NCBI GenBank assembly: GCA_943704525.1
Contig: CALSCQ010001479.1
Location: 1-20,000 of the forward strand
Source: Pigoraptor vietnamica
Lineage: Eukaryota > Opisthokonta > Filasterea
DNA: 20,000 nucleotides
Reading direction: 5' to 3'
Positions 1 through 20,000 of the stretch are shown piece by piece. The notes beneath the pieces were generated by a model, which searched no databases, was not told the origin of the DNA, and saw only the letters and a program-made list of their open reading frames with translations. Numbering within the stretch: the stretch's first letter is position 1; the number at the start of each line of letters is the position of its first letter. Made by a program: the position numbers and the translations under genes.

Positions 1-31
1 CCCCCCCTCCCCCTCCAAACAACAACAACAG

Positions 32-3000: not shown

Positions 3001-6000
3001 GTGCACGAGTCCCGCGCGGCGTTCGTGTGACGCCCTATCGATCGAGGCCTTTTTTTCACTCGCACATGCGATGGAGTGATGGCTCACGTGACACGTTCCC
3101 TACTGTTGCAGACGCCTGCCAGCAGGCGATCCGCGCGCGATTTTGTCCCAAACGCGGCGCTCGTGACGATGGCGTGCTGTGCGGTGGGCAGCAACCGCGG
3201 CTACGACGAGTTTGTGCCGCACAACATTCACGTCGTGAAGGAGTCGCGGCTGTACGGTGCGTGGACGGACGCTGCGAGTACGGCGCCTGGCACCGCAAAT
3301 GCTGCGACGGGAATGATTGCCGTGCGTCGCGTTCTCAACAATCTGCACAAGGAGATGGTCTCCGGTGGCTTCTCGCAGGTGCGTATGCGCGTAGTGTGAG
3401 GGTTAGGCGGAACCTTGTGCAAGGAAAAGGGCGAGAGATATTGTGTGCATGTGTGTCTAGCGTGCGCGTGTGAATGCGCGTTGGTTGCAATAATATCCGA
3501 GTGCGCTGAGGCAAACGCCATTCCGCGCAGGTGTACGTCGACCGCCTCACCAAGGACATTCTTGCGGTCACCCGCCACGCCCCATCGACACACGAGAGTG
3601 TTATTTGCGTCGCACACACGGCCTTCGAGCAGCACAGCGGGTGCGACCGGCCAAAGTCCCTACGGTGGGTGGCTGTGCCTTGTGCGCGGCGCGCGTGTTT
3701 AGTGCGAATGTGCGTGCCGCGTGGGCTGTGCATTGTATGCGGCGTCTGAATGGCGCGAGAGCACGGTGTGTGCGACTGCGCTTATGATGTCACTGCCTTC
3801 GTCGTCAGAATTTCGGGCGTCGTGACCAGTGTCGTGCTGGAGGCAACCCTGGACATTGCGGATCCGGACGCCGCGTTTGTCCGCAACGCCGCGTTCATCA
3901 ATGGACTTGCCAACATGCGCCTGTCTTCGGAGGTCCACGGCACGAACGCGGTGAGTGGGACGCACTATCGCAGAATGCAGAGGTGTGGCGTAAGACAGTG
4001 ACTCGCATTCACTGCAAGCCCACTCGAATACCTTGCATGACGTCCGGAATAGTAGGGTTTCCATCTTTCTGTTTCTTAGATTTCGTTTGGTACTTCAGCA
4101 AATTTACGTGCGCGTGCGTCTGCCGCAGGCGCACATCCCCACGAGTGGCACACTCTTCCAGCTCGAGAGCCTTGTGGATAGGCAGGAGGGAGGCTACCAA
4201 CTGCTCCACTTTAAGGACGGGTTCCGCCCGGGGAGCGTGATTATTGTCAGGTGTGTGTGCGTGTGCGTGCTTGTACGTGCGCGTGTGTGTGTGTGCCTGT
4301 GCGTCGGGTGTGAGCGTGCGCCCGAGTAGTGTGTGCTCGTAACATCATCGCTGCGAACTGTGCCTGAATCTCGCACCATTCTCATTCGACAACAGGACGC
4401 GCATGTCTCCGGAGGCGCACGAAGCCGCGCACGCACTCCAGGCAGAATTTCTCGGCGTCGCGAACACGCCTCGCCGCTCATCCGTCGAGGACAGGCGGCG
4501 TGCGTCGGCGGGTGTGGTGGCGGAGGCGGCGTCGGCGCAGCTTGCCCTTCCCCCGGAGGATCTTGCGGCCATTCTGCGCGATGTGACGCTGGTCGATCTC
4601 AACGCGATTCTCTACCGCACCGACGGCGAGGTGCGCGGAGTGCGCGTGCTGTCCTGCGCCACTGTCAGTCGTTTGGTCCATTGCTTCGCTCTGTTCAGTG
4701 CCGGGGGCGTTCCTACATGAGTCGATGGACCGCTGTCTATGATTTAAGCTGGCCCCCACTTCAGGGGTGCATCTATCACGGGGCATTCGTCGTCTCTCTA
4801 TTCGCCTAATAATCGCAAGCACGCGTCTCCCTTCTCGATGATACCCCGACCCCCCTCACCACCGCCTGCCTTGCAACACCCCGCAGGAGAAGGACGACGG
4901 GACGGGCGGCAGCGCATACGACGTGCCCAACCGCGGCCCCATGGTGTACTGCGGCCTTGCGGGCATCGGCCCTCTCCTCTCGGAAATTCGGTGCGTTACG
5001 TTACATCCCGCCAATGTGTCGCGTGCGTTCTTTAAGATCCCGAGGACGGATTGGCGTGTGGAGTTGTGTTCGTTTTTTGCACTCTGTCGTATATATATTG
5101 TCGTTTTGTAATGCTGTTGCGTTGCTCGCCTTCCTCTGACGACTCGTGCCCCGGCAGCGCCTCACGTGACCTGGGACACCCGCTATGCGAGAACCTCCGC
5201 CGCGGCGATTGGCTCATGGAATACTCGGTGCAGCGCCTCACTAAGTGCGTGACGTGTGCGATGTGATGTCCGCGTGACGTGCGCGATGTGAGCGTGACGT
5301 GTGCGATACGTCTGCGCGCGCCGTCATGTGCTTGCGTGCTCTCTTAGTGCACTGTGTGCGAGTGTGTGAAGATTGCTCTTGTTTGTCAGCCCGTAGGCGT
5401 TTCTGTTGTGTGTGCGAATGTATATTGCTTGTCACCGCATGGGCGCTTCTGGCTCGCCACACGTGCGATAACCACGACACGCAATCCACCGCAGGAACTT
5501 TCCCACGCGCCGCTTTGGGCTGTGGCTGCGCCGTCAGTTTGAGCGCGTGCAGCAGCTGCCCCGGTACCTCGTCCCCTTCTACTTTGACATTGTCGTCACG
5601 CCCTCCATCATGATTTGCAAGGACCACGCCTGGCGCCTCATGGGATCCTTCGTCAACGAGGTGCGCCCCGCTGTCCGTGTGCTGTGGGCGCGTGAAGTTG
5701 CGTGCGCGCGCATTTTTTTTTAACGTGCGCTTTGCGGGCTTGCTCCCATCCTGTGTGTGCGATGGATGTGTGGCGCCCACTTGACTATGGCCCGCGCACT
5801 GTTGGTTCCATTTCACTAGAGCAGACGCAGGCAGACTGTGGGCACTCTCCGTCCTCACAACTGTGGCGTGATGTCTCACTCAAGCTGCCTGTTTCTCCGC
5901 AGGGCTCTGAGCTCGTGCGCCACCTTGCCCTTGGGTCCGTTCAGCTCTATGGCATCGTCCAGTCGTCCGCCTTCTCCAGCGCGATCGAAGTCATCGACGA

Positions 6001-8414
6001 ACCGCCGAATTTCACCGCCGCGCCCGCAGCAGCGACGCACACGGACGGTTCGACAGCGGCGCCCAGTGGGTCACACACGATTCGCCGCCGATCGCTGACG
6101 GCGCTTCCGTTGGCCGACCAGCTGCTCGTGTCGACGACGCACATGCCTCCGACGCTCGCCGCCGGCCTCCCCCACTTCAGCGTCGGTTACATGCGGTGGG
6201 TGTGAGGGGACAACGAAAAGGGCTCGTAATGGAATGGCATGTGCATGCCAACCTGTGTTTATGGCGGTCGGTGCGAAGTGTTGAGCGACGGGCTCGTTAT
6301 AGGATGGCATGTGCAAACGTGTGTGTGTGTGGGTCGGTGCGTAGTATTGAGCGACGCGCGTGTGTGCAGGTGCTGGGGACGGGACACGTTCATTGCGCTT
6401 CGCGGCCTCTTCCTTGTGACGGAACGATTTGAAGACGCGCGCTCGATCATTCTCTCGTGCGCCGCGTGCTTGCGGCATGGCCTCATCCCGAACCTGCTCG
6501 ACGGTGGCCGGTGCGTTAACACTGTTCGTGCACGCACGGTTGTAACGAAAAACTGGCGACAGCGCAGAAGGCCAGCATATTGTTGTCCGCGGTTGTAATG
6601 CACTGGAGACGGCGCAGAATGGGTTCGAATGTATGCCCATGCGCGCCTTCTCACGTTTGGACGTTCGGACGGCGTTTGGACGTGTGTTTTGCGCGCAGGA
6701 ATCCGCGCTTCAACGCGCGCGATGCGTCGTGGTGGTTCCTGCAGGCCGTGAAGGACTACGTGCAGCTTGCACCGGAGGGCCCTGCGTTGCTCTCGGCGCG
6801 CGTGCGGCGCCTCTTCCCTTACGACGACCAGCGGCAGCACAAGGAGTGGAAGGACGCGGGTTACAAGCCCGTCGTTGCGTCCGTCGGTGACATCGTCTAC
6901 GAGATTGTGTCGCGCCACGCTCAGGTTTGTGTGTTTTGTTTGTTGATTGTGTGATTGGTTTAATAATTTGTGTGTGCCCCGTCGCACGCGGACACCTTTG
7001 CCACATGCGGTTCTCCATCCCCTCGCCGTCTTGTCGTTTGTGCTCTTGTGCGTTGTACAGCTCGTGTTGCTTGGTTCATGCATCGTGGTCGGGGTTGCTA
7101 CGTTTTGGCAGAAATCTCACTCGCGCGCACCGAATGCGCACACACTCGCAGCTGATCGAGTTTCGCGAGTGGAACGCGGGCCCTGCGATCGACCGCGTCA
7201 TGACGTCACACGGGTTCCAGGTGCGCGCGGGCATCGATCCCGCCACGGGGTTCCCTTTTGGCGGGAACGCGCAGAACTGCGGCACGTGGATGGACAAGAT
7301 GGGCGAGTCGGAGCAGGGTGGGTGTTTGGCGCGCGACTCTGCGAGTTGGCGTGTATGCGTGCGCGCACACACACATTTTATGGTTGCATCGTACTTGCGT
7401 ACTTGCGTACTTGCAACGATTTTCCCGTCCGGCCCTTTTGCCGCAAAACCTTCTTTGTGGCGATGGCTGCTTTGCGTTCTTGTGTGCCGATGAGGTCGTG
7501 TATGAACGCGAAAATGACACCGGCGCCCATTTTCTGTCCACTCTTCTGCAGCCGGCACGTGCGGCGTTCCCGCCACTCCGCGCGACGGGTCCGCGATTGA
7601 GCTGGTGGGCCTTTGCAAGTCGGTCGTGGGATGGCTTGCCACGATTGCGGGGACCAGCGAATTTCCGCACGAGACCGTGCCCTTGCGCCAGGAAGACGGC
7701 AGCACGAAGGTGTGTGTAGATGCACGTTGGTGTATGTGTGGGGTGCGCCAGGTGCGCCACTGTACATGCATGCGTGCGCCTTCTCAAGTCTTTGTGCCGC
7801 GCTATTCACTTCGCTGAACTGTTCCCCTCCGCTGCAGCCCATCTCCTTCGCCGAGTGGGACGCGCTCATTGCGCGCAATTTCGAGCGCAAGTTCTACGTG
7901 CCCGAGGACCCCTCGCAAGACGACGCGTATGGCGTGGACCGCGCGGTCGTCTTCCGCCGCGGCATTTACAGAGACACTGTTGGCGCATCCGAGCGCTTCA
8001 GGTGGGGGACTGCGCGCGTGCGCTGTCGCCATGCAGGTTGTATTGTCTTCTGTGTGAACGCTTGCTACTGTCCGCGATGTCTCTCGAATGTCACATGTCA
8101 CACCCGCCCTTCTTTCGTGCGCATGCGTGGTGCCGTGCCTGTTTGTTAATACGTTACTTCGCCCTACGGCCACAGAGACTACCAGCTGCGCCCCAATCAG
8201 TACATTGCGATGGCCGTTGCGCCTGAGCTGTTCGATATCGCGCACGCCTCTGCAGCGCTCGCCATGGGCGATAAGGTGCGTGCCCGCGAAGAGTGCGTGC
8301 AACATCTACCCTCCCCACACCCACTGTGCGCTTCTATGCGCATGTTGCGTGCGACTGCGGCGTGCGTGTGCGAGAGTCTTCCCGTCGTCGCCGTTTTGCG
8401 CTTGTCCCACTATA

Positions 8415-8509
<95 letters not shown>

Positions 8510-8955
8510 ATCCGACACACCTTCGTCCCCCGCAGCACCTCGCGGGTCCTCTTGGCATCAAGACGCTCGACCCGGACGACTGGACGTACAATGGGAACTA
8601 CAATAACGCCGCCGATACGGCCGATAGGAAGACGTCCAAGGGGTTCAACTATCACAACGGCCCGGAGTGGCTGTGGGTCTTTGGTTACTTTCTGCGTGCC
8701 AAGGTCGCGATCGGAGGGCGCGCCAACCGCCTCCGCCGCGCCGTCGCAGAGGTCGAGTACGGACTGGCGGCGCACAAGCGGCATCTCTTCGATAACAACG
8801 TGTGGGAGGGACTGCCCGAGCTGACGAACGCGAACGGGGCGCCGTGCCACGACGGGTGTCCCGTGCAGGCGTGGAGTGCGAGCTGTATTCTCGACGTGCT
8901 GTTTGACATCAAGCGCGCGGGACTGCACGCGCCCCAAATAGCGCACACGAACTAG
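32..8955 (+). CDS. AGL: Glycogen debranching enzyme, bifunctional (5' partial, 23 exons in window)
   Basis: Cytosolic enzyme that removes glycogen branch points using a 4-alpha-glucanotransferase and an amylo-alpha-1,6-glucosidase in one chain. Exons I assign: 32-172, 399-1352, 1540-1638, 1820-2047, 2224-2340, 2480-2598, 2830-2954, 3112-3378, 3531-3664, 3809-3950, 4129-4250, 4396-4630, 4887-4990, 5158-5244, 5495-5660, 5903-6195, 6370-6510, 6699-6924, 7152-7317, 7552-7709, 7838-8001, 8176-8275, 8536-8955 (TAG stop). Every junction keeps the frame, giving about 1568 visible residues; human AGL is 1532, so only a modest N-terminal piece lies left of position 32. Family motifs appear in order: [65 protein letters not shown] and GLPELTN. 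Donor choices at 1638 and 2047 rest on frame and family alignment. An insertion of about 45 Ala/Ser/Arg-rich residues near 4400-4540 is less conserved. No frame break was seen. Confidence 0.97.
2224..2954 (+). other. AGL: 4-alpha-glucanotransferase catalytic centre of the debranching enzyme
   Basis: Exons 5-7 encode the GH13-like catalytic residues. The nucleophile Asp of the RIDNCH motif is at 2267-2269. The acid/base Glu of VVAELF is at 2493-2495. The transition-state Asp of THDNE is at 2946-2948. Assignment rests on family knowledge of the conserved Asp-Glu-Asp triad in eukaryotic debranching enzymes. All three are present, so the transferase half looks catalytically competent. The domain starts earlier, in exons 2-4, where the (beta/alpha)8 barrel begins (NHT.H.SEWL around 761-790). 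Confidence 0.9.
5247..5310 (+). repeat. Three ~20-nt tandem copies inside intron 14
   Basis: Copies of GCGTGACGTGTGCGATGTGA lie at 5247-5266, 5272-5291 and 5292-5310, with a 5-nt spacer after the first and a few substitutions. The array begins two bases inside the intron, so the first copy overlaps the donor GTGCGT at 5245. Confidence 0.85.
6220..6355 (+). repeat. Two ~70-nt tandem copies inside intron 16
   Basis: The first copy runs 6220-6289 and the second 6290-6355. Shared blocks are GGGCTCGT near the start, GGATGGCATGTGCA-like text in the middle, and GGTCGGTGCG followed by TTGAGCGAC at the end. The copies have diverged moderately, mainly in a GT-rich middle. They fill most of the intron between the exons ending at 6195 and starting at 6370. 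Confidence 0.85.
7390..7413 (+). repeat. Three perfect 8-nt tandem copies in intron 19
   Basis: The unit CGTACTTG occurs three times in a row with no change. It is a short microsatellite-like array within the intron of 7318-7551, with no evident function. Confidence 0.8.
8416..8507 (+). repeat. Perfect (CA)46 microsatellite in the last intron
   Basis: Ninety-two uninterrupted bases of alternating C and A lie in intron 22 (8276-8535). The tract ends 28 nt before the acceptor CAG at 8533-8535, where a polypyrimidine tract or branch site would normally sit. On the transcript it is a CA repeat, a known binding target of hnRNP L-type proteins in animals. Confidence 0.98.
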
Positions 8956-8958
8956 CGT

Positions 8959-8982
8959 CTGTGAGTGGCGCTGTGAGTGGCG
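8959..8982 (+). repeat. Tandem 12-mer duplication after the debranching stop codon
   Basis: CTGTGAGTGGCG occurs twice back to back, starting four bases after the stop codon at 8953-8955. It probably lies in the 3' UTR. Confidence 0.85.
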
Positions 8983-9000
8983 GCCATGCGCCGTGCTTTT

Positions 9001-9017
9001 GGTATGGCGGCCATACC
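9001..9017. other. Short hairpin between convergent gene ends
   Basis: The arms GGTATGG (9001-9007) and CCATACC (9011-9017) are perfect complements around a 3-nt CGG loop. It sits between the debranching stop (8955) and the kinase-like stop (9097). The gap of about 140 nt must contain both 3' ends. I see no canonical AATAAA on either strand here; ATAAAG occurs just after the hairpin. Confidence 0.5.
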
Positions 9018-9096
9018 GACTCATAAAGAGGAGGGTGTCGAGACCTTGGGACGCTTGGAAGTTTTCACCTAAACCTCAGCCGGGCAGGGACGTGTA

Positions 9097-10268
9097 CTAC
9101 GGTGAGGGACAGAGAACGACCACACTTCCTTCGCATCTTATTGAGCGGCGGTCGCTCAAAACCGCCAGCGAAATGGATATATGCAGCTGTTCGCGTTCCA
9201 TGCTTGTTCTCTGCATGTCGGGCGTCATCGGGAACCTTGTGTCTCCGCGGTCGCAGTTATCAATCTTCAGCATGCACGTGAGTTCGTTGTCGAGACTGGA
9301 CGCCGTGGGGTGCTTCCTCGGGTCCACACATGAGGCGTTGGACGACGCCGCGCACAAACGACCAGTCGTTTGGCGACGCCGCGAATTGCCCGCAAAGTGT
9401 TGCGAGTACATGATAGAGACGGTGCGACCCAGCGCCCACATGTCAGTCGCAGGCGACGCGCGCCCTGCGGAACCGAGGCACTCCGGCGCCAAGAAGCCCT
9501 GCGCACCGCGCAAATGCACGTGACCGAGCGAAATGTGACCCGCGAAGAATAGGGCAAGACATTAGTACGTATTATGAAGGGAAAGACGTTGAGAGCAGAA
9601 GACAGGCAAGCACATAAAGTGACGCAAACTATTTGCACGAGGGCGGGCATGATGAAAGTAGTATCGATAAAGAACCAAAACGTGGCACAGCCAAGTGAGC
9701 ACACTTTTGTCCCGGCCGCTGGAGCCGTCCCGCCGGTGTCGAGCGCGCCCACAAGATCATAATCCACAAGGCGCCAACAGATCGCGTCCCAGTCGAAGCG
9801 AACCGCACCCGGCTTGACGTCGCGGTGCCGCAGCCGCTTGAGTGCAGAACGGCCAGCGCCCGCGAGCAGTCGCGCAAGAGCACAACAGCCTGTGGCGAAG
9901 GGTGTCACGAACGGTCGGAAGAGCACGCCGCGCCAACAGTCAATAGGCAACCGTACCGTCGCAGGCGTGGTCAGGGGACAGGAGGGATCTTCGGCAAACA
10001 GCCACGGCTCGACGATGCAGTACGTCCCAGCCGAAGGTTCGCTCGTTGACGAGAAGAGCAGAGCGGGAATGTGGTCCTGTCCCGCAAAGTGCCGCAGAAA
10101 CAAAACCTCTCGCGCGTCGCGCCGCCCAGTCTTCACGATGAGAGCGACGGTCGCACCCGTCATGGTGCGCGCCATCCAGACCCATGTCGCGGTGTGCTGC
10201 CAACAATAATCAATGAGATGACCGGATACGCAAACGACCCGGCCAAAACCGACACAGCCAATCTCGCA
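9097..10268 (-). other. Protein kinase domain with non-canonical catalytic motifs
   Basis: The last two exons carry the kinase lobes. In order: a glycine-loop-like GCVGFGRV; a VALIVK strand with the candidate ATP lysine; a helix-C-like AREVLFLRHF with a Glu; a hinge-like GTYCIVEPW; the catalytic loop HRDVKPGAVRF; DYD in place of DFG; then, across the 9704-9499 intron, GTK joined to GFLAPECL (APE motif); TDMWALGRT (the conserved Asp of helix F); and DPRKHPTASSL near the end. The catalytic HRD Asp and the metal-binding Asp of DYD remain. The Asn normally found after KPG is Ala, and DFG's Phe-Gly is Tyr-Asp. It could be an atypical active kinase or a pseudokinase. Confidence 0.8.
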
Positions 10269-13144
10269 CTGCACCCACACGCCATGTAGGAGCGATGCCG
10301 ACAGGCAACTGATATCAAGGAATTGTCAAACTCATGCACCTCCTCAGACAAACGTCAGCGCACTAAGAAAGCACATTGGCAAAACATAATACAGTGGGGA
10401 GATATTCGACTTACATCGACGCAAAGGTCTTCGATCGTCGCACCGAGCGCGTCACAGGCCGCGACCGCGAGCAAGCGCGCGTCATGAATTCCGATACATT
10501 CCGGATTCTCGCGCCACTCACCGTCCGCATCTCCGAGGTCGTCGTCGGCGTGGCACTTCGCAGTCTTCCCGTCCTTCGCAGTCTCACCGCCGGCGTCCTT
10601 CACGGCCCCATCACTCGCGGCCGGCCTCATGAACACGGCCAAGAGCGCCTTGATAGTGTCCGCGCCCCTGAAGTCCCCGCTGGACGCCATGGCCGAATCG
10701 GGGAGGTCACTATCAGGCGGCGGCTGAATGAAGTCGGCGTCCTCCGGCATGCCGCGGAGGTAGGAGCCCGTAGCGCGTGCAACGACGAGCCACTTTGCCA
10801 GCGTCGCGACGCCCGCTACGGTGGCAATATCGGCCTCGTCAATGTTCTCAAAGAGGCGACCCGTAATCACGATATCGTTGCCTTGCACCCCGACCCGCAC
10901 GCGAGGCCGCATGCAGACGAGACGGAGCGTCGACTCGCGCACAAGACATCCCCAAATGGATATCTTTTCGAGCGCATCCGTCGTGTTGCCGACGCGCCTC
11001 CTGCTCACATGGTAGACGAGCGCCTCGTACATATAGCACGGCAACCGCCAGCGATCGGCCTTGTGGGCTCGTCCGTCCGCGTCCTTGGTCCTCGAGATCA
11101 CGCACAAAAACCACGGCACATCGTCGCAGAAGCGGTTTGGCTTCTTCCGGTCACAAATACGGGAAATGTCATACTCGACTTCATAGACCAAGCCGCTGCT
11201 ATCGGCGTCAGTCACGCTGAGCGCACGGAGAAGTGCGCCGATAACCACCGACACAAGGCGTGCGTGATGATTCGTCTCGTCCTCTCTCGGCTTTGTAACA
11301 ACAAAGTGCCTCACGGACGCGAGGGCGCTCAAGACGTGCACCAGACCGTGCTCGACGATGGACGTCGGGAATTCAACGCCGGCAAGCCCATCCAAAAAAT
11401 CCTTCCCCAGCCACGGATCTTTGTCGCCAGTGAGGGAGACTGCCGCTGATCGAATCGGTTCCGCACTCGACGTCTCGACGTCCGCGAATACATCACCGAG
11501 CTCATCCTTGGGATAGCGAGCGATCCAGTAGAGAGTTAGAGACGCGTCTACGCGCGCCTGTTCTCGGGGATACGACGGGTCGTCCACGCTGCACCCCGGA
11601 CGAGTCGCAATTCGGCCGTCAGCCAAAAAAAAGAAAGAAAAAAAAAGAACGCACTCAACAGCACGGCACCACAGACCCTCTTCGATCGATGCGCCATCGT
11701 TCAGCTCTGCGACGGCACTCACCGAAGGGCACGCTGGGCTCTCTTCAGAACGTCGTGAAGGTGCTTGTGCGTCTCCTCCCACATGTAACCGTTAGGACAC
11801 GCCATCCCTGTTACAGTGACCGATGCCGAGCATTAATCGTGTGGGGTGGCTGCACGGCCTGAGCCACACCAGACAAACAATGTATTCCCGCTCACCGGTG
11901 TAGACGTCAATATCGCCGCCGTGCGCTGCCAGCTTCCCAAAATCAGGCGGTGTGTCGGTTCCATGCTCGAAAATCAGCAGGTCCAGCCGCTCGTCGAGCA
12001 GATCCTTGAGACATGTTGCTAGGCGGTTGCGTGCGTTTGCATGGCTCTGTGGGCCTCTCCAAACGTCTGCCAGAAGACATTAATGCCTGTAGATACGCAA
12101 GATGCTGGCTGGAGAGACTGCATTGCATAATCAAATATATGACTGGTGAGTGATAATTGAATGGACAGCCAAGAGAGGAGGGAAAGGAGGGAAGGGTCAG
12201 TTGGTTTGACACACAGCAGGCACAAACTGCAACACGTACGCAACACACACATACATATGAGCACTCGTACCCCCGTCAGCTACTGAAACTCTCGAAAACG
12301 TTCTCGCCAGCTGCTCGGGATCTTGCTGTGCCAGGTCTGACGGCACGGAGAAGCAATGCCGCGGGCACGGTGTCAGTTATGAGGACCCTAAGAGTAGACC
12401 CACGCTCGAAGGTACGCAATATGCAACACGCGCCAAATTCATACTCAGCCAACGTGCGAGACACTATACAGTCGCACTTCCCCAATACGCATTAACGTGG
12501 GACTCTGACACACTATACACTACGCAAACATCCAAACTGAATACACTTACACACACACACACAGCCCACAATACACGTCCGACACGACACACACAGCCCG
12601 ATACTGTCAGTTCGCACGTAGAATACACTGCCCCCAGACGCACGCCCTACACCACACTATATATAAAAAAATGAACACACGAAAAGTTTGTCAGTGTAAC
12701 ACCCTGTCGACGCACTCCAGGCCGTGTGACTCACCGCCAGGGGCCAAACTCGGCTTCTCTGCAAGCCACAGAACGCGAAACGTAAGGCACATCAACAACG
12801 GCAACGCACTGACGTCGCAGCACACAGAGTACCCACCCAGCCGCAGATATTCCTTCTTCCTCCGCAACTGCTCGTTCTCCTTCCGCAGCTGCTCCTCTTC
12901 TTTCGCTACTGCTTCGCTTTCGTCCGCTGCGCCTCCACGTCCTTGTTTAACCACTCCAAAATTCTTTCCTCTCGGTCTGTTAGAGACGATTTCGCGTTGA
13001 GTGCGTCAATCTTTTCCGTGACGTTCTTGACGTCCCGTTCAACCTCGTCGGTAGAGAGTTCGAGCGCAGAAACGTCGCTTCGTTCTTAGAAATCTTCCGA
13101 TCGATCTTGCCAATCTGCTCCTCCAAACTTATCGACTGCGCCAT
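9097..13144 (-). CDS. Coiled-coil / unknown middle region / protein kinase-like protein, multi-exon
   Basis: Minus-strand exons I assign, 5' to 3': about 13144-12837, 12758-12735, 12066-11896, 11807-11723, 11588-10415, 10268-9705, 9498-9097. From the short second exon onward all junction phases agree. The start ATG at 13144 has G at -3 and +4. The first exon gives a charged, Glu/Lys/Leu-rich coiled coil (SLEEQIGKIDRKI, later EEEQLRKENEQLRRKKE). A long middle part (about 12066-10415, some 475 residues) matches no domain I can name. The C-terminal third is a protein kinase fold. Total length is about 900 residues. The coiled coil and one part of the kinase lobe read best in more than one frame, so the gene may be decaying, carry unrecognised splicing, or contain sequence errors. 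The layout recalls lineage-expanded coiled-coil kinases of protists and chytrid-like fungi; that link is inference. Confidence 0.72.
11589..11722 (-). other. Intron with a long polypyrimidine run in the kinase-like gene
   Basis: Donor CG/GTGAGT at 11722 and acceptor GGTGCAG ending at 11589 join LR to VDDP in frame. The intron contains a T-rich tract (about 11627-11650 on the minus strand) with two runs of eight or more T. Because this intron also happens to be open, a naive reading joins it to the next exon as coding sequence; the T-run translation (FFSFFFL) and the frame of the upstream exon argue for splicing. Confidence 0.65.
12067..12734 (-). other. Unusually long intron of the kinase-like gene, GT/CA-rich
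   Basis: The donor GTGAGT starts at 12734 and the acceptor CTGGCAG ends at 12067 on the minus strand; joining them keeps the frame. At 668 nt it is over three times longer than the gene's other introns (78-206 nt). On the plus strand 12510-12660 is rich in CACA runs, including (CA)n near 12549-12563, and 12657-12671 has an A/T run resembling TATATATAAAAAAATG. A missed exon is possible: a minus-strand open frame of 69 codons spans 12485-12276, but I recognise nothing in it. Confidence 0.5.
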
Positions 13145-14829
13145 TGCTGTGACTGGGGGCATGCTGTGCGGAGGGACGCGATGAAAGAAGAAAGGCGATG
13201 AACGGAAAACGCGATCAGGCGGAATCCGCGGAAATTTGGTCAATCACATAACAGTATTGATAGGCAACCCCAGAGTAACAGGACATGGACCAGACATCGC
13301 CGGCAGCCCCGGCCCGGCGGTCGCACTGGCCGGCCAGACTACGGAACAGTTGGAGTGCGGTTTTTTGGCACCTTTCAACGTGCCGTTGCCTTTGCGTGCG
13401 CATCCCTTTTAACTTTGCGGCGATGAGCGGCTCTCTCACTGCAACTGCCGGAGGGATGCCACTGCAGCCGGGCACTTCCTCTCGGGAAGCCAGTGCGGAG
13501 GCTCAGTGCGGCTGTCGGGCGGCCGAGCCGGCCCGGGCAGCCGGCAGCAGTCGGCGAGGGTTGCAACCGGCCGGTGCCCCCGCCCGCGACAACGCCGTTC
13601 AGTTCGATTGCTCTTTACGTGCCCCGTCCACGTCAACGCCGTTTTCGTTTGTTCCTAGCGCCCACGTAGCTGGCCCCGTATCATCAGAGGCAGCCCGATG
13701 CGCGCTCGGCTGCCGGCGATGCGCCGCGCCAGCCGGATTGTGCGCAACGAGTGTGACTGTCGGCTGATCACTGTAGCAGAGAGCCGTTAATTTTGTTCTG
13801 CGGGGCACTCTGAAGGTGGCACCGGCGGAGTCACAAGCCCACACTGGCGGCGCTGATGCTGACAGCGGAGGGAATCAGCAGCCGGCGTGCCCCGCCCGAG
13901 GGCCGTACTGATGATATCTGATAGCGAGGCGGCGCTGGAACTGACGCGACCCGCGAATGTTGCGTGTCAGTCTGCCAACGGCGGTACAGATGCGCAGGGG
14001 CCCCGTCGGCGACCGGCATGGCCGGCGCATCTGGTCTGATGACTCGACGGCTCATCGGGCTGCTGGCTGTTGCCGGCCGGATCTACGGCGCGCGCCGGCG
14101 TGCCGGCCTCACTGTCAGAGGAGTCGCTGATCGGCTTCTGGGCGTCAGTTCCGGCCTGATCCCCTTGGACGGAGTCGGACGGACTCAAGACATCTCGAGG
14201 ACGGAACTGTGGTGATCGTGCGACAGACTGAGGGCTATCTTCAGTTGGCCGGGCGACTGGCGGCACGCGGGCATGACTGATAAATGATCCGCCGAGTACG
14301 GCGTCCGGCGTGCCGCCGCCGGCGGCTGCTGCCGTGGCCGCCAGTGTGCGGGCCGCCCGAGCCGGCAGTGAAGCATTAAACTGACTGCTAACGCCGTGAC
14401 GTTTATCTGTTGTTAGTGTGCCGTCGGCCGTAGCAGTCCTTGAGGACGAGGGTGACTCTACCAGCCTCACGGGGCGGGGAAGCGGCAGTACAGCTTCGAA
14501 AATGGAGGCCGTGTCGAGTGTTACGTGCCTCAGTGTCAGGCGGTGTGCGTTTTTGCCCAAATTGGGTGCGATCATGTCACCTGACACCACCACCGCGCGC
14601 AGACAGCAACCACAGCGCCCGCGGAACGTGCATTCTCTCGCACGCACACGCAGCCACACATGCGGAAAGACGCAGACGCACGCGGAGACACGCACAAAGA
14701 CACTCTAGACACAAAGGCCACGCAAAGCTTGCGCTCTCACACATATACGAAGCATACATCTGACAAAGATCCCACACTCCATTCGCTTTCTGGAAGGTCT
14801 ACACCCAATTTCTGCATCAACTCTCGCTG
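13145..14829. other. Divergent intergenic region, GCCGGC-rich, no recognised gene
   Basis: This 1.7-kb interval lies between the divergently transcribed kinase-like gene and channel gene. From about 13290 to 14520 it is rich in CCGG/GCCGGC text and lacks the GT/CA-rich character of the introns. It carries several open frames, the longest at 14575-13967 on the minus strand, and another minus frame at 13475-13215 with a mixed, protein-like composition. None matches a family I know. I saw no terminal inverted repeats, no target-site duplication and no transposase or polymerase motif. From about 14640 to 14760 it becomes CA/CG-rich spacer. Confidence 0.5.
13967..14575 (-). CDS. Hypothetical Ser/Pro/Ala-rich protein, doubtful
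   Basis: A 202-codon open frame from an ATG at 14575 to a stop at 13967 on the minus strand. The first 60 residues are mixed in composition (MIAPNLGKNAHRLTLRHVTL and onward). The rest is low complexity, rich in Ser, Pro, Ala and Thr with an acidic SDSSDSEAG patch. There is no recognisable domain, signal peptide or membrane segment. In GC-rich DNA such frames arise by chance, so this may be noncoding, a lineage-specific gene, or a remnant. Its only support is length and the absence of a better candidate on either strand. Confidence 0.2.
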   Translation of the reverse strand: MIAPNLGKNAHRLTLRHVTLDTASIFEAVLPLPRPVRLVESPSSSRTATADGTLTTDKRHGVSSQFNASLPARAARTLAATAAAAGGGTPDAVLGGSFISHARVPPVARPTEDSPQSVARSPQFRPRDVLSPSDSVQGDQAGTDAQKPISDSSDSEAGTPARAVDPAGNSQQPDEPSSHQTRCAGHAGRRRGPCASVPPLAD

Positions 14830-14959
<130 letters not shown>

Positions 14960-15002
14960 GGCGCCCTCGTGAGGCCGGGTGTGCTCTCAGTGTGTTGCTG
15001 CC

Positions 15003-18000
15003 ATGCCCCCAGGGACGCCGGCCGACCGCGAAATTGCGGCAGCGGCGATGGAGATGAACCCGGTTCGCCACTCGCGCGCCTCCGCCGTCGACCCCAACGC
15101 CATCATAGCCTCGTCGTTGTCGCAGGGTATTGTCGTGGCCCCAACGGCCACCGTGAGCTCGGCGACGGGCGTGCGTGCCGTGCGTCTGGTGCGGCTTGCA
15201 GAGCCTGATGGCGCTGCGAATGCCGCCGATGGAGAGAAGAGGGACGGCCGACTTGGGCCGTTGTCGTCGTCGCCGCGGACGTCGGGTGACTCCGTGCGCG
15301 TGCGTCGCAGTGGTCACACGAAGGCCGTTGCATGCTGCTCCTTTTCGCAGCCCCGGCATATTCTCGTCACGGGGTCGCGGGATTCGACGATGCGCGTGTG
15401 GAACACGAACGACGGCTCGCTCCTCGCCGCGTCCAGCATGTGCGGCGGCGTGCTGCGCGGGCACTCCGAGGCCGTCGAGTCGGTCGCCCTCTCGCCGAAC
15501 GGGACGCGATGCGCTTCCACGTCGTGGGATAACACGGCGCGTGTGTGGGATCTCGAGACGGGCAGCGAGGTTTGTCGGTTGGCGCGTGCGACGCCCTCGA
15601 CGTCGAGCGGCTTTGCTGCGGTAACATTCAGCGCGGACTGTCGCTTTGTTGCGGCCGCGTCGACAGACCCGCGCAAGAGCGTCGCGGGCGTGTGGGACGC
15701 ATCGACGGGTGAGCTCGTGGCGCTGCTCGAGGGGCACACGGGACAGGTGCAGGCACTGTCGTTCTCGCCCACGAGCGCCCGTATTGTGACGGGGTCGCGC
15801 GACGGGACGTGCCTCGTGTATCAGCTGCAGCTGAACGCCTCTTCGCACGGCGAGGGCGGCGCGTCCATTGTGACCCGCCTCCTGGGACACAGCGAGCCCA
15901 TCGTCGCGTGCAAATACTCGCCGGTGGGACGGTCTGCGGGGAGCAGGCACGCGTCTCTCGCGAGCGGCGGCGATGTGTCCAAGCGCAATTCCGTGCTGGA
16001 GGGAAGCGGCGCCGGCGGAGAATACAGCTCGCTCGTGCTCACGGCATCGACGGACGGTCTCTTGGGCGTGTGGGACGCGACGACGGGCGCGCTCATTCGC
16101 CCACTTGTCGGAATGGAACGAGGTGCCAAAGTGCACTGCGACTTTTCGCCCGACGGAACGCAGGTGGCGGCCGTGTCGACGCTGGGCAACCTCATGCTGT
16201 GGGACACGGCCACCGGCGCTGTCATCCGCCGCGTGGACCTCGTCCAAATGGTCGCCCTGAACGAGCCCTTCGCACCCGGCGCCGGAGGTGCTTCGGGGGC
16301 CGCCGCGGGTGGCGTGGGCGTGCTCGCACCCGACCAGAACGCCCTCGCGCAGACGGGCATCGTCGTCGTCCCCGCGACCGAGACGGCTTCGGCGCAGAGC
16401 GGACACGACGCCGGCGTGCCGGGAGGGCCCTCGGCGGCGGTCGTTGCGGCGCGGATCGGCGTGGCGCTGTCAGTCGCCTTTTCTTCGGACGGACGGCGCA
16501 TACTCGTCCCGCTTGCGACGGAGGACTTTGGGGTGCGCCTCGTGGATACGCAGATTGAGCCTGCGCCGCTCGTCAAGCCGCACGTGAAGGCGGTCACAGC
16601 GTGCGCGTTTCACCCGTCCGGCACGCGCGTCATTTCCGCGGCGGTGCTCGGGCCCGTGCGCGTGTGGGACGCAACGCATGGCACCGATCGCATGGAGCTG
16701 GAAGGGCACACGCATTCCGTCATGTCGGTGGCCGTGAGCGCGGACGGATCGCGCTTTGTGACAGCGTCCTGGGACCGCCTGCTCATGGTGTGGGATGCGG
16801 CGACGGGGAAGCGCACGGCGACGCTCGCCGGGCACGAGGGTCAGGTGAGCGCGTGCGCAGTGTCGCCCGCGGACCCGACTGGCCGCATCGTTGCGAGCGG
16901 AGGGAGCGATTCCACTGCGCGCATATGGGACGCAGAGACGGGGGCGTGCGTGTTTGTGCTCGGCGGCCACAAGGGGGCGGTGAACGCCGTCGCGTTTTCG
17001 CACGAGGGAGAGCTAGTTGCGTCGGCGTCGTTCGACGGGACGGTCCGCGTGTGGGATCCGGCCAGCGGCACCCTCCTCGTCACGTTCCACGGCCACTCCT
17101 CCTCCGTGCACGGCCTCGCGTTCTTCCCGTTTGACGTGCGCGGGGAGGTTGCCGACCTTCGCAGTGGCCTGTTTCCCCTATCCGTCGGTGCACCCGATGA
17201 CCCAGACGGGGGCGCGTCCCGTCGCACGCTTGTGGTTGCTTCGGCATCGGCCGACCGCAGCGTGCGTTTGTGGGGCCTCTCTGTGCGGGAGGGCGAGAAG
17301 GGCGGCGTCGACGTCGTCGTGGCCACGCAGCTGCATGCGCTCGACGACGCCCATCTCGGGACGGCGACGTCATGCGCCTTTTCACCAACGGGCGCGCGCC
17401 TCTTCAGTGTCGGTCGCGACAAAACGCTCAAGGTGTGGGACATGCGCGACTACTCTTGCGAAATGGCCTTCCGCTTGCCGGCCGAGGGCGAGTGCGTCAG
17501 CGTGTTTGGCGGCCAGGCAGTCCATGGATCTGCGTCGATGGGCACTCTCCGGAGGCACCGGGCGCGCACAATGGCGGGAACCGGGGCGGATGGTGCGCTT
17601 GTCGTGGCCATCGCGATGTTGGACGCGTCCGTTTTAGTAATGGACGTGACAAAGCGCGACCCGCCACTCGCGTCAATGGACCTGTTAATTGCGCGCGGGG
17701 ACGTCACTTCCCTCGCACGCGTCACGCGGGAATACCCGCACACGGTGCACGTGCCACATCTCGAGAACAGGCGCACGGTCATCCACCGCGCCGCCGAGCT
17801 TGGTCGTAACGACGTGCTGGCTGTTCTCCTCTCTGCGCGCGTGCCGTTTGTGCTCTCGCGCGACGCTTCGGGACTCACCGCCATCGACCTCGCCATGGCT
17901 CGCAATTTGAAAACGACCGTCGAGCTGCTCCTCCGGCGGGTGGTCGAGCCCCCGCTCGGTCTCCACCCGCGCAACGCGTACGCGCTCACGTGCCTCCTGC

Positions 18001-19757
18001 CTCGCCTCGTCCAGCGGTGGCCGGACCTCGCTGCCGACACGCTGCGTAGATTGGACTCCGTCAGCGCGCCGCCCCTTGCCGCGAACACGCTCGAAATGCA
18101 CCCGTGCGTGCCGTGGCCCTGCCGCGCGACCGTGTCCTCCGCGGCGGAGCACTACCCCTCCGCCCGCGGCCGGCGTGACAATGCACAGACGCTCACGGCG
18201 GCGCTGGACGACGGCGACATTCTGGTGCGCAGCGACCCCGAGCTCAACTGCGCCGGTGCCCTGTGGCGGGACCTTGTGGAACTGGACGGCTCCGCGGGCG
18301 CCAACGTGGAGGGGGGCGCGGGCGGCGTCGATGCGGGCGTCGCAGCAGACGAGGGCATTGCAGTGGAGGAAGTGCCCGATGACGAAGACGATGCAGACGG
18401 CGACGAACGGCCGACGGCGGAGCGCCGAGTGCCCGTGTTGCCGTGCGTGGTGCCCCTCCCCTTTGTGCTCGGCGCCGACGCCCGGTACCAGGTGACTGGC
18501 CGGCCGGCGGCGGGCGGTGTCACGCGCGGACAGTCGCGGCCGCCGCGCGTGCTTCCCGGCAGCCTCGACGCGCACTGTCCGCAGGGGTTCTCTCACATTG
18601 GAAAGAAGGCGCTCGGCGGGACGTTGCTTCACGTGGCGGCGCGCAGCGGGTGCGAGGAGCTGTTCCGCACGCGCGTCATGGAGGCGGTGATGGCGCACAA
18701 GTGGGACGCATTCGGGCGCCGGAAGTTCCTCGTGGACCTCGCGTTTTACGCCGTGTTTGTCGGCCTGTACACGGCGGTGACGGCCGTCGCGACGTCTCGC
18801 GGCACGTCTTGCGCGTCAAACGTCTATCGCAGCGACCCCTCCAATAACGGGGACGGTCCCGATTACGACGGCGCGCGGGGGAAGGTCGAGCTTGCGTTTG
18901 AGATTGCGATGTTGGCGATGGCTGCGTGGTTGTTTGTGGTCGAGCTGGTGCAGCTGTACAAGGAACGGCTGCGCTACTTTGCGTCGCTGTGGAACCTCGT
19001 CGAGACGTCGGCGCTGATCCTCGTCTTCACCGCCGTCCCACTGCGCGCCCTCTGCGCGTGGTCGGAGCCGGCCGTTACGTCCGTCGCGACGCTTCTCCTG
19101 TGGTTCCGCCTGCTGTCGTTTGCGCGCGGCTTCCGGCAGACCGGCGTCTTTGTCCGCATGCTGCTGTCGATCGCACGCGACCTCGTCTTCTTCCTCGGCA
19201 TACTGTTGCTCGCCGTCCTCTCCTTCGCGCACGCGTTCTTCCTGCTCGGCGGCGGCTCAAGCGCCGCGGGCTTCGAGACGTGGGGCGACTCGGTTCTCAA
19301 CGCCTATTTGATGATGTTCTCGGCCTTTGACGTGACGACGCTTGCCGCGGTAGCCTACCCCGGGCTCGCACGCACGCTGTGGGGCATCTTCATGGTGGTT
19401 GTCGTCATTATTCTGCTGAACGTGCTCATCGCACTTCTCTCGAACACGTTCGAGCGCACGATGGAGAACGCCGCCGTGCAGTGGCGCATGGAGCTCGCGT
19501 CGATCCTCGTCGAATACGAGTTGGCAATGACCCCGAAGCAGCGCGCCGCCCACGCGCCTCGCTGGCTCCACTACGTCGTGACGGCGTCGGACGCGCAGGC
19601 GGTCGCGGAAGGCGTTCCTTCGCCGGGGGGTTCGTCCGGACACGACGAGGCGACGCGGAAGGGCGTGGAGGCGCTGTCGGGGAAACTGGACGCCCTGCGT
19701 GACGCCGTGCAGTCGCTCTCGGGGCGCTTGGACCGCCTCGAGGAGCGTGGACGGTGA
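15003..19757 (+). CDS. WD40 - ankyrin - TRP-type cation channel fusion protein, single exon
   Basis: A 1584-residue uninterrupted frame. I take the ATG at 15003 (GCTGCC before it); the frame stays open a little upstream but without an earlier ATG. Residues 1-100 are Ala/Ser-rich. Residues 105-880 hold about 14 WD40 units, enough for two seven-bladed propellers, with a Gly/Ala-rich insert near 425-480. Residues 892-982 resemble ankyrin repeats (VIHRAAELGRNDVLAVLL, then LTAIDLAMARN). Residues 985-1225 are a linker with an acidic patch (VPDDEDDADGDE). Residues 1230-1510 are a six-segment ion channel ending in the TRP-family signature LLNVLIALLSNTFER. Residues 1554-1584 look like a short coiled coil. 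Predicted role: plasma- or organelle-membrane, non-selective or calcium-permeable cation channel with a huge cytosolic N-terminus; gating stimulus unknown. No introns, unlike its neighbours. Confidence 0.93.
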   Translation: MPPGTPADREIAAAAMEMNPVRHSRASAVDPNAIIASSLSQGIVVAPTATVSSATGVRAVRLVRLAEPDGAANAADGEKRDGRLGPLSSSPRTSGDSVRVRRSGHTKAVACCSFSQPRHILVTGSRDSTMRVWNTNDGSLLAASSMCGGVLRGHSEAVESVALSPNGTRCASTSWDNTARVWDLETGSEVCRLARATPSTSSGFAAVTFSADCRFVAAASTDPRKSVAGVWDASTGELVALLEGHTGQVQALSFSPTSARIVTGSRDGTCLVYQLQLNASSHGEGGASIVTRLLGHSEPIVACKYSPVGRSAGSRHASLASGGDVSKRNSVLEGSGAGGEYSSLVLTASTDGLLGVWDATTGALIRPLVGMERGAKVHCDFSPDGTQVAAVSTLGNLMLWDTATGAVIRRVDLVQMVALNEPFAPGAGGASGAAAGGVGVLAPDQNALAQTGIVVVPATETASAQSGHDAGVPGGPSAAVVAARIGVALSVAFSSDGRRILVPLATEDFGVRLVDTQIEPAPLVKPHVKAVTACAFHPSGTRVISAAVLGPVRVWDATHGTDRMELEGHTHSVMSVAVSADGSRFVTASWDRLLMVWDAATGKRTATLAGHEGQVSACAVSPADPTGRIVASGGSDSTARIWDAETGACVFVLGGHKGAVNAVAFSHEGELVASASFDGTVRVWDPASGTLLVTFHGHSSSVHGLAFFPFDVRGEVADLRSGLFPLSVGAPDDPDGGASRRTLVVASASADRSVRLWGLSVREGEKGGVDVVVATQLHALDDAHLGTATSCAFSPTGARLFSVGRDKTLKVWDMRDYSCEMAFRLPAEGECVSVFGGQAVHGSASMGTLRRHRARTMAGTGADGALVVAIAMLDASVLVMDVTKRDPPLASMDLLIARGDVTSLARVTREYPHTVHVPHLENRRTVIHRAAELGRNDVLAVLLSARVPFVLSRDASGLTAIDLAMARNLKTTVELLLRRVVEPPLGLHPRNAYALTCLLPRLVQRWPDLAADTLRRLDSVSAPPLAANTLEMHPCVPWPCRATVSSAAEHYPSARGRRDNAQTLTAALDDGDILVRSDPELNCAGALWRDLVELDGSAGANVEGGAGGVDAGVAADEGIAVEEVPDDEDDADGDERPTAERRVPVLPCVVPLPFVLGADARYQVTGRPAAGGVTRGQSRPPRVLPGSLDAHCPQGFSHIGKKALGGTLLHVAARSGCEELFRTRVMEAVMAHKWDAFGRRKFLVDLAFYAVFVGLYTAVTAVATSRGTSCASNVYRSDPSNNGDGPDYDGARGKVELAFEIAMLAMAAWLFVVELVQLYKERLRYFASLWNLVETSALILVFTAVPLRALCAWSEPAVTSVATLLLWFRLLSFARGFRQTGVFVRMLLSIARDLVFFLGILLLAVLSFAHAFFLLGGGSSAAGFETWGDSVLNAYLMMFSAFDVTTLAAVAYPGLARTLWGIFMVVVVIILLNVLIALLSNTFERTMENAAVQWRMELASILVEYELAMTPKQRAAHAPRWLHYVVTASDAQAVAEGVPSPGGSSGHDEATRKGVEALSGKLDALRDAVQSLSGRLDRLEERGR
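15315..17655 (+). other. About 14 WD40 repeats, two probable beta-propellers
   Basis: Repeat cores seen in order (abbreviated): SRDSTMRVWN, SWDNTARVWD, KSVAGVWD, SRDGTCLVYQ, STDGLLGVWD, STLGNLMLWD, DFGVRLVD, LGPVRVWD, SWDRLLMVWD, SDSTARIWD, SFDGTVRVWD, SADRSVRLWG, GRDKTLKVWD and a weak last unit ending SVLVMD. Most start with a GH dipeptide (GHSEAV, GHTGQV, GHTHSV, GHEGQV, GHKGAV, GHSSSV). Repeats 9-11 are the most regular. Repeats 3, 6, 7 and 14 are degenerate. The insert between repeats 6 and 7 separates the two halves and may mark the boundary between propellers. Confidence 0.9.
18690..19530 (+). other. Six-transmembrane TRP-type ion transport domain
   Basis: Pre-S1 reads KWDAFGRRKF, common before S1 in TRP channels. 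Segments by hydrophobicity: S1 about residues 1242-1264, S2 1295-1319, S3 1329-1350, S4 1358-1376, S5 1394-1417, pore 1418-1456, S6 1459-1483. S4 has few basic residues (one Arg in its middle), which fits TRP rather than voltage-gated channels. The pore segment contains MFSAFDVTTL, with an acidic Asp where the filter is expected. After S6 comes SNTFERTMENAAVQWRMELA, a TRP-family hallmark region. S3 and S4 are separated by a short Cys/Trp-containing loop. Confidence 0.9.
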
Positions 19758-20000
19758 AGGACGGGCGACGGTGTGTTGCGATTTGATGTCCTGGTGCGCC
19801 GACGGATTGATGTCTCTGGGCGTGAATGGTCGATGCCATACAGTGTCAATAAGGTCTGTGGCTGCGTTTGCACTAGCGTGTTAATTGACTGCAGTCTTCG
19901 CGCGCCACGCGCACACAGAGCGACGCAGACACACGCACACACGCACGGTCACACACGCAAGTACACGTGGCGCACGTGCATGCAACGAGACGAAGCGACC
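19758..20000. other. 3' flank of the channel gene, no gene seen
   Basis: After the TGA stop there are about 240 nt with no convincing coding frame. TCAATAAGG near 19846-19854 is the nearest thing to a polyadenylation signal. From about 19910 the sequence becomes CA/CGCA-rich spacer like the other intergenic parts. Confidence 0.4.

Follow-up and report, generated by a model that had tools for sequence, protein, structure and literature searches.

A single-exon gene of Pigoraptor vietnamica predicted to join WD40 propellers, a weak ankyrin region and a TRPV-like channel

Does the filasterean Pigoraptor vietnamica encode an ion channel that carries WD40 propellers in the same polypeptide? The question is raised by a long frame on the forward strand of contig CALSCQ010001479.1 (assembly GCA_943704525.1), of which positions 1 to 20,000 were analysed (the window). 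Between 15003 and 19757 one frame of 1,584 codons runs from ATG to TGA (1,594 codons from stop to stop), and it is predicted to encode WD40 blades, a weak ankyrin region, a TRP-type channel and a probable coiled coil. An earlier note, made from the letters alone, had proposed the order WD40, ankyrin, TRP channel in one exon. The open frame and the domain search suggested there agree with it: Pfam PF00400 (WD40) matches the whole fusion protein at 1.3e-79, Ion_trans matches the channel half at 4.2e-17, and the ankyrin match is present and marginal (Ank_2, 27.8 bits).

The frame itself looks like one coding unit. The G+C content at third codon positions (GC3) is 0.76-0.88 in each of 15 consecutive 100-codon windows (codons 1-1500, both inserts included), and it never exceeds 0.72 in any phase of four flanking 300-base stretches taken in arbitrary phase. 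Neither the open frame nor GC3 points to an intron, a break in the frame or a join, and two chance frames are therefore not what is seen here. A misjoin, which the earlier note had also discounted, and a pseudogene were rejected on the same two observations. The features of the gene, all on the forward strand and numbered by residue of the fusion protein, are as follows.

15003..19757 (+): single-exon coding frame, 1,584 residues and stop, predicted order 14 WD40 blades, ankyrin, TRPV-like channel, probable coiled coil (open frame; GC3).
15312..17654 (+): 14 WD40 blades, residues 104-884 (PF00400; blade positions with boundaries set by hand; PDB match 2ymu).
16248..16451 (+): Gly/Ala-rich insert, residues 416-483, separating blades 6 and 7 (blade table, sequence).
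17676..17954 (+): weak ankyrin repeats, residues 892-984 (Ank_2 27.8 bits, cut-off 27.3, best stretch residues 920-977; PF00023 25.5 bits, cut-off 21.1).
17955..18614 (+): insert of about 220 residues that includes an acidic, Gly/Ala-rich stretch, residues 985-1204 (sequence; outside the best ankyrin stretches; GC3 0.79-0.88).
18615..18665 (+): last ankyrin repeat, residues 1205-1221, adjoining the pre-S1 segment (Ank_3 best stretch, 24.8 bits, cut-off 22.3).
18702..18782 (+): pre-S1 and S1, with fingerprint residues W1234, F1242 and Y1249 (alignment to TRPV6 and Inactive; hydropathy).
18885..18941 (+): S2 (hydropathy).
18996..19052 (+): S3 (hydropathy).
19182..19238 (+): S5, with fingerprint residue F1408; G1381 lies just upstream (hydropathy; alignment).
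19281..19340 (+): pore helix and filter, containing AYLMMFSAFD (alignments).
19383..19439 (+): S6, with F1463, N1473, L1475, I1476 and A1477 (hydropathy; alignments).
19440..19532 (+): TRP-domain-like helix with W1494 (alignments; shuffle control of the S6-to-TRP pattern).
19650..19745 (+): C-terminal heptad repeats, residues 1550-1581 (8 of 9 a/d positions hydrophobic).

The channel lies at about residues 1225-1510. The 60 best of 273 PDB matches are all TRP channels (TRPV, TRPA and one YVC1), including insect Inactive (6.5e-19), TRPV6 (2.1e-13), TRPA1 (1.2e-12) and Nanchung (1e-9), and the similarity to the solved group I channels Inactive and TRPV6 extends across S1-S6. The alignments examined, one to Inactive and four to TRPV6 constructs, span pre-S1 through the TRP helix. 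The available text of PMC9242649 describes a group I TRP fingerprint of 12 residues, W F (F/Y) G (F/Y) (F/Y) (F/Y) N L I A W, at least nine of which occur in 95% of TRP channels; its table gives nine and seven for two algal group I TRPs and six for PKD2. The fusion protein has 11 of the 12, namely W1234, F1242, Y1249, G1381, F1408, F1463, N1473, L1475, I1476, A1477 and W1494. When the channel sequence was shuffled 10,000 times, the S6-to-TRP pattern never appeared; the pre-S1 pattern alone appeared in 574 of the 10,000 and therefore carries little weight by itself. On these grounds the channel is classified as a group I TRP that is probably closest to TRPV, the subfamily of its best matches, though TRPA1 follows them; the TRP channel of the earlier note is both supported by family matches and narrowed to a TRPV-like one. 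The NCBIfam model TIGR00870 ('trp') also matches (2.9e-21, model positions 342-644 of 747), at 75.2 bits against a curated cut-off of 498.75, which is not reached. Downstream, the heptad score of residues 1550-1581 was reached in 12 of 10,000 shuffles, and a coiled coil is probable there.

For the WD40 part, a WD model was built from 36 blades of the same genome and used to locate blades in the fusion protein. Its 14 rows correspond to 13 blades, because blade 5 (residues 295-370) was matched as two pieces, one of them insignificant; the 14th blade (residues 827-884) is degenerate and was assigned by eye. Thirteen blades by model and one by eye agree in number with two sets of about seven, as the earlier note had expected from roughly 14 repeats, and the 14 blades presumably form two propellers of seven blades each. 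Among PDB sequences, 2ymu ('WD-40 repeat protein', 5.3e-99) is the closest solved WD40 array, and Apaf-1 is also among the matches (5.4e-53). We take 2ymu to be a Nostoc protein, and both it and Apaf-1 to be double propellers; they resemble the WD40 part by sequence, but have no channel joined to them. Blade lengths, with boundaries set by hand, are irregular (42 to 81 residues), and blade-to-blade identity within the protein averages 24-31% at spacings 1-12.

Are these propellers a recent copy of a local WD40 family? Twenty WD40 loci of the genome, mostly long frames, were drawn from the 150 WD40 matches that were scored out of 823 candidates. Exactly 14 blades were found in eight of these proteins and 15 in one. 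Of the 104 blade spacings in the eight 14-blade proteins, 101 measure 41-44 residues, two measure 45 and one measures 58. An ADP-ribosyltransferase (ART, PF01129) was found in both N-termini scanned (1e-12 and 2.4e-11), followed by a P-loop recognised by eye; Pfam named no NTPase in these two N-terminal pieces, which end soon after the P-loop. The 14-blade proteins look like STAND NTPases, a label given by eye. The combination of ART, P-loop and 14 regular blades occurs at L040 390-2099 with L013 (contig C642) and at L041 391-2199 with L015 (contig C684). Frames related to this L013/L015 family, whose members are single-frame proteins with C-terminal tails similar by eye, occur at L010, L011, L012, L014, L016 and L021. 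Two further arrays were noted: L022 2135-4471 (minus strand) has a WD40 array and a protein kinase in one frame (Pkinase 2e-31), and L017 82-3000 (minus strand) has a kinase-like start by eye and seven WD40 blades at its end.

The STAND-like proteins share 14 blades and single long frames with the fusion protein, but have regular blades, no channel that we could see and a different equal-position register. The WD40 part is 26.9-33.1% identical (BLAST) to the nine best-scoring other frames, and similarity between blades at equal positions to nine other long WD40 proteins shows no excess (0.756 of 500 permutations reach the observed value). Among the 14-blade proteins themselves a weak equal-position excess with the rest was seen in three of eight (0.002, 0.022 and 0.036) and not in the other five. 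Pfam (E up to 1) found no P-loop NTPase (NACHT/NB-ARC) in residues 1-99 and 860-1584 of the fusion protein; for residues 104-884, which consist of WD40 blades and one insert, the check covers the best 25 of 55 Pfam families. Membership in the STAND-like family was therefore ruled out on the missing NTPase, the blade lengths and the equal-position register, although the register test is not clean. Recent copying of the propellers from the local WD40 family looks unlikely, and we read the propeller domain as older, settled and individually diverged because its irregular blades contrast with the regular blades of the eight others.

The ankyrin region is the weakest of the domain claims, and would comprise some two to three repeats at 892-984 and a single one at 1205-1221. 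The single-repeat model PF00023 is above its cut-off in both pieces scanned (22.4 and 25.5 bits), and Ank_3 in the shorter piece only. The Pfam scan thus gives two to three marginal repeats plus one apart, and not a TRPV-type N-terminal stack of about six. The ankyrin repeats of the earlier note are present above cut-off, but are much weaker than those of animal TRPV, TRPA and TRPN channels.

How isolated is the gene in its genome? The search covered a 32.5-Mb assembly of 1,395 contigs, in which the fusion gene lies on C612 (28,843 bases). No paralogue of the ankyrin-channel half was found in it beyond the gene itself (two candidates scored). Nine matches to the trp model were obtained, and only that of the fusion gene runs through the pore. 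Seven are confined to model positions 18-218, which we take as the ankyrin part of the model (C853 8935-9384, C406, C1065, C841, C1246, C949 and C143) and are presumably ankyrin-repeat proteins, not channels. Forty Ion_trans matches lie on 25 contigs, two of which also hold one of the 150 scored WD40 matches: C612 itself and C692, where the two matches are about 10 kb apart and in different frames. Open reading frames of at least 250 residues near Ion_trans matches (the top six at each of 16 loci, L001-L008 and L030-L037, which lie on 13 of the 25 contigs) gave no match to the WD40 half at 1e-10. With 673 of the 823 WD40 candidates unscored, the genome may hold a further fusion. The organism is very probably ciliated, because IFT46 is present at two loci (C408 10662-11405 and C1233 5206-6419; best E-value 3.1e-74).

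A number of observations pull the other way. In the WD40 part, the highest mean blade identity falls at spacing 7 (31.3%); spacings 3 (30.9%) and 9 (30.5%) are nearly equal, and a recent duplication of one propeller is therefore not clearly indicated. Similarity to the other nine proteins at a three-blade offset is borderline (0.046 of 500 permutations), being the best of 15 offsets for one of ten proteins tested. Residues 862-880, within the blade assigned by eye, are hydrophobic enough for a membrane helix in the hydropathy scan; in our judgement they form a buried strand, with a membrane segment as a possible alternative. The Ank_2 score above its cut-off comes from residues 880-1231 alone and falls to 26.4 bits in a longer piece. 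In the channel, S4 was missed by the hydropathy scan and its position is taken from the alignments. The twelfth fingerprint residue, the pore aromatic, depends on the alignment (Y1435 against Inactive, M1438 against TRPV6), and which Inactive or TRPV6 residue counts as that aromatic is our assumption. The pore filter SAFD (1440-1443) lacks the conserved TRP glycine, which is present in 86.3% of TRP channels and is left out of the fingerprint (PMC9242649, available text). Filter residue D1443 falls on the Asp of TIID in the TRPV6 alignment and on an Asn in the Inactive alignment. We take that Asp of TRPV6 to be important for Ca2+ selectivity. As to the rest of the genome, C105 matches trp model positions 423-505 and may be an exon of another TRP gene, because the search runs exon by exon, and an Ion_trans frame on C596 weakly matches the channel half (1.75e-05, 21% identity, BLAST against the fetched frames). 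The IFT57 match is sub-threshold only. A homologue of the same order was not found in viral contigs, prokaryote genomes or phages, collections with few or no eukaryotes, and the conservation of the fusion is therefore unproven.

What, then, would such a protein do? We consider it probable that the gene encodes a TRPV-like channel subunit whose docking propellers tune its location or gating. The WD40 blades and the reduced ankyrin region would replace the usual large ankyrin stack on the cytosolic side. Four subunits would assemble through S5-S6 and the coiled coil, giving up to eight propellers per channel only if a homotetramer forms, and the pore would pass cations, probably including Ca2+. 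By binding partner proteins the propellers would hold the channel in place, plausibly at the cilium or cell surface, and conformational changes in them could pass through the ankyrin and pre-S1 segment to the pore. The scaffold or ligand sensor coupled to gating that the earlier note suggested is likewise a hypothesis. We rank docking and tuning first because propellers generally bind proteins, the gene is single-copy and its blades have diverged without the recent amplification of repeats that recognition domains would be expected to show.

A more specific role follows the ciliary model of the insect Inactive and Nanchung channels: force or bending would gate the channel, and its propellers would attach to proteins of the axoneme or of microtubules. 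Inactive is the best PDB match among those listed, IFT46 is encoded, and EML and dynein-assembly WD40 proteins are among those that the propellers match in Pfam and PDB; however, matches to EML and similar proteins are generic for WD40 repeats, and IFT57 does not rise above its cut-off. We regard this ciliary tether as possible but less likely.

Could the WD40 module instead be a sensor of ligands or non-self, driving a Ca2+ channel as its effector in place of an NTPase plus an enzyme? Fungal NACHT-WD40 receptors have been proposed as such sensors. Fourteen blades recur in the eight other long-frame proteins with ART and P-loop starts where scanned, C1393 joins WD40 to a protein kinase (2e-31), and joining WD40 arrays to other domains is therefore common in this genome; the borderline three-blade offset would also suit a tie to the local arrays. 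The channel's own blades, however, are irregular and diverged, whereas 103 of 104 spacings in the other eight are 41-45 residues; the equal-position register is not shared, and the channel half has a single copy, where recognition receptors would be expected to have expanded. This makes a sensor-driven channel unlikely. Its strongest form, a new TRP class in which the cytosolic double propeller is the primary receptor of the stimulus and a protein ligand on eight propellers around the tetramer directly opens a Ca2+-permeable pore, so that one protein serves as receptor and channel and bypasses second messengers, we likewise consider rather improbable.

It is still less probable that the frame yields two proteins, an independently acting WD40 part and an ankyrin-TRP channel of its own that starts near Met880 or Met892. 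In-frame ATGs do occur at codons 872, 880, 892 and 965, among 31 in the frame, but the frame crosses the junction without a stop or a break, its codon signature does not change there, and taking the longest continuous frame is the simplest interpretation. A channel of polycystin (group II) type can be given hardly any credence: PKD_channel matches the channel half (7.7e-08) and most unicellular TRPs are placed in group II clusters (PMC7312350 and PMC9242649, available text), but the best 60 PDB matches are TRPV, TRPA and one YVC1, only 34 residues separate the S1 and S2 hydropathy segments where polycystins have a long S1-S2 loop (PMC7312350, available text), the TRP-helix W1494 is present, and 11 of 12 group I residues are found against six for PKD2 (PMC9242649, available text).

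The surroundings of the gene contain pieces of a glycogen debranching enzyme at 85-1356 (hDGE_amylase 3.4e-74) and 8293-8955 (GDE_C 1.4e-32). They lie about 7 kb apart, and this neighbour therefore seems to be intron-split, unlike the one-exon fusion gene. Two minus-strand frames, 9267-10280 (337 residues) and 10355-11782 (475 residues), have no credible Pfam match; the first holds an HRDVKP motif that by eye resembles a kinase catalytic loop. A near-pure (CA)n run of about 128 bases (14830-14957) ends about 45 bases upstream of the ATG at 15003, and a second long CA run, read from the translations, lies at about 8410-8500.

Set beside known channels, the protein shares with insect Inactive and Nanchung and with vertebrate TRPV5/6 the pre-S1 W-F-Y spacing, RGF.Q.G in S4-S5, N.LIA in S6 and the Trp of the TRP helix. 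TRPV channels have some six ankyrin repeats and are not known to have a propeller, whereas the fusion protein has about 14 WD40 blades, reduced ankyrins split by a 220-residue insert, a filter (SAFD) without glycine and C-terminal heptads. Some predicted fungal proteins (Rhizophagus, Mortierella) pair WD40-like repeats with Ion_trans, and the combination may thus occur elsewhere in unannotated form; among the papers listed by our literature search there was nothing apt on such a pairing. Among the literature matches listed, no title or abstract opening names a WD40-TRP fusion, the subscription literature lying largely outside the search. TRPV channels have already been reported in unicellular eukaryotes, and the protist TRPV-like channels (Thecamonas, choanoflagellates) are likewise of TRPV type, with no WD40 part mentioned in the available text of PMC7312350 and PMC10770216.

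In summary, the gene is predicted to encode an unusual variant on the TRPV-like theme. Group I TRP channels differ mainly by their cytosolic parts, such as ankyrin stacks, TRPM homology regions and enzymes. With a TRPV-like pore that bears WD40 propellers, these modules would be joined by a protein-docking platform, in a unicellular lineage, and such a pore would be relevant to the question of whether these channels require a full ankyrin stack for gating. The fusion is also in keeping with the idea that TRPV-like channels are older than animals.

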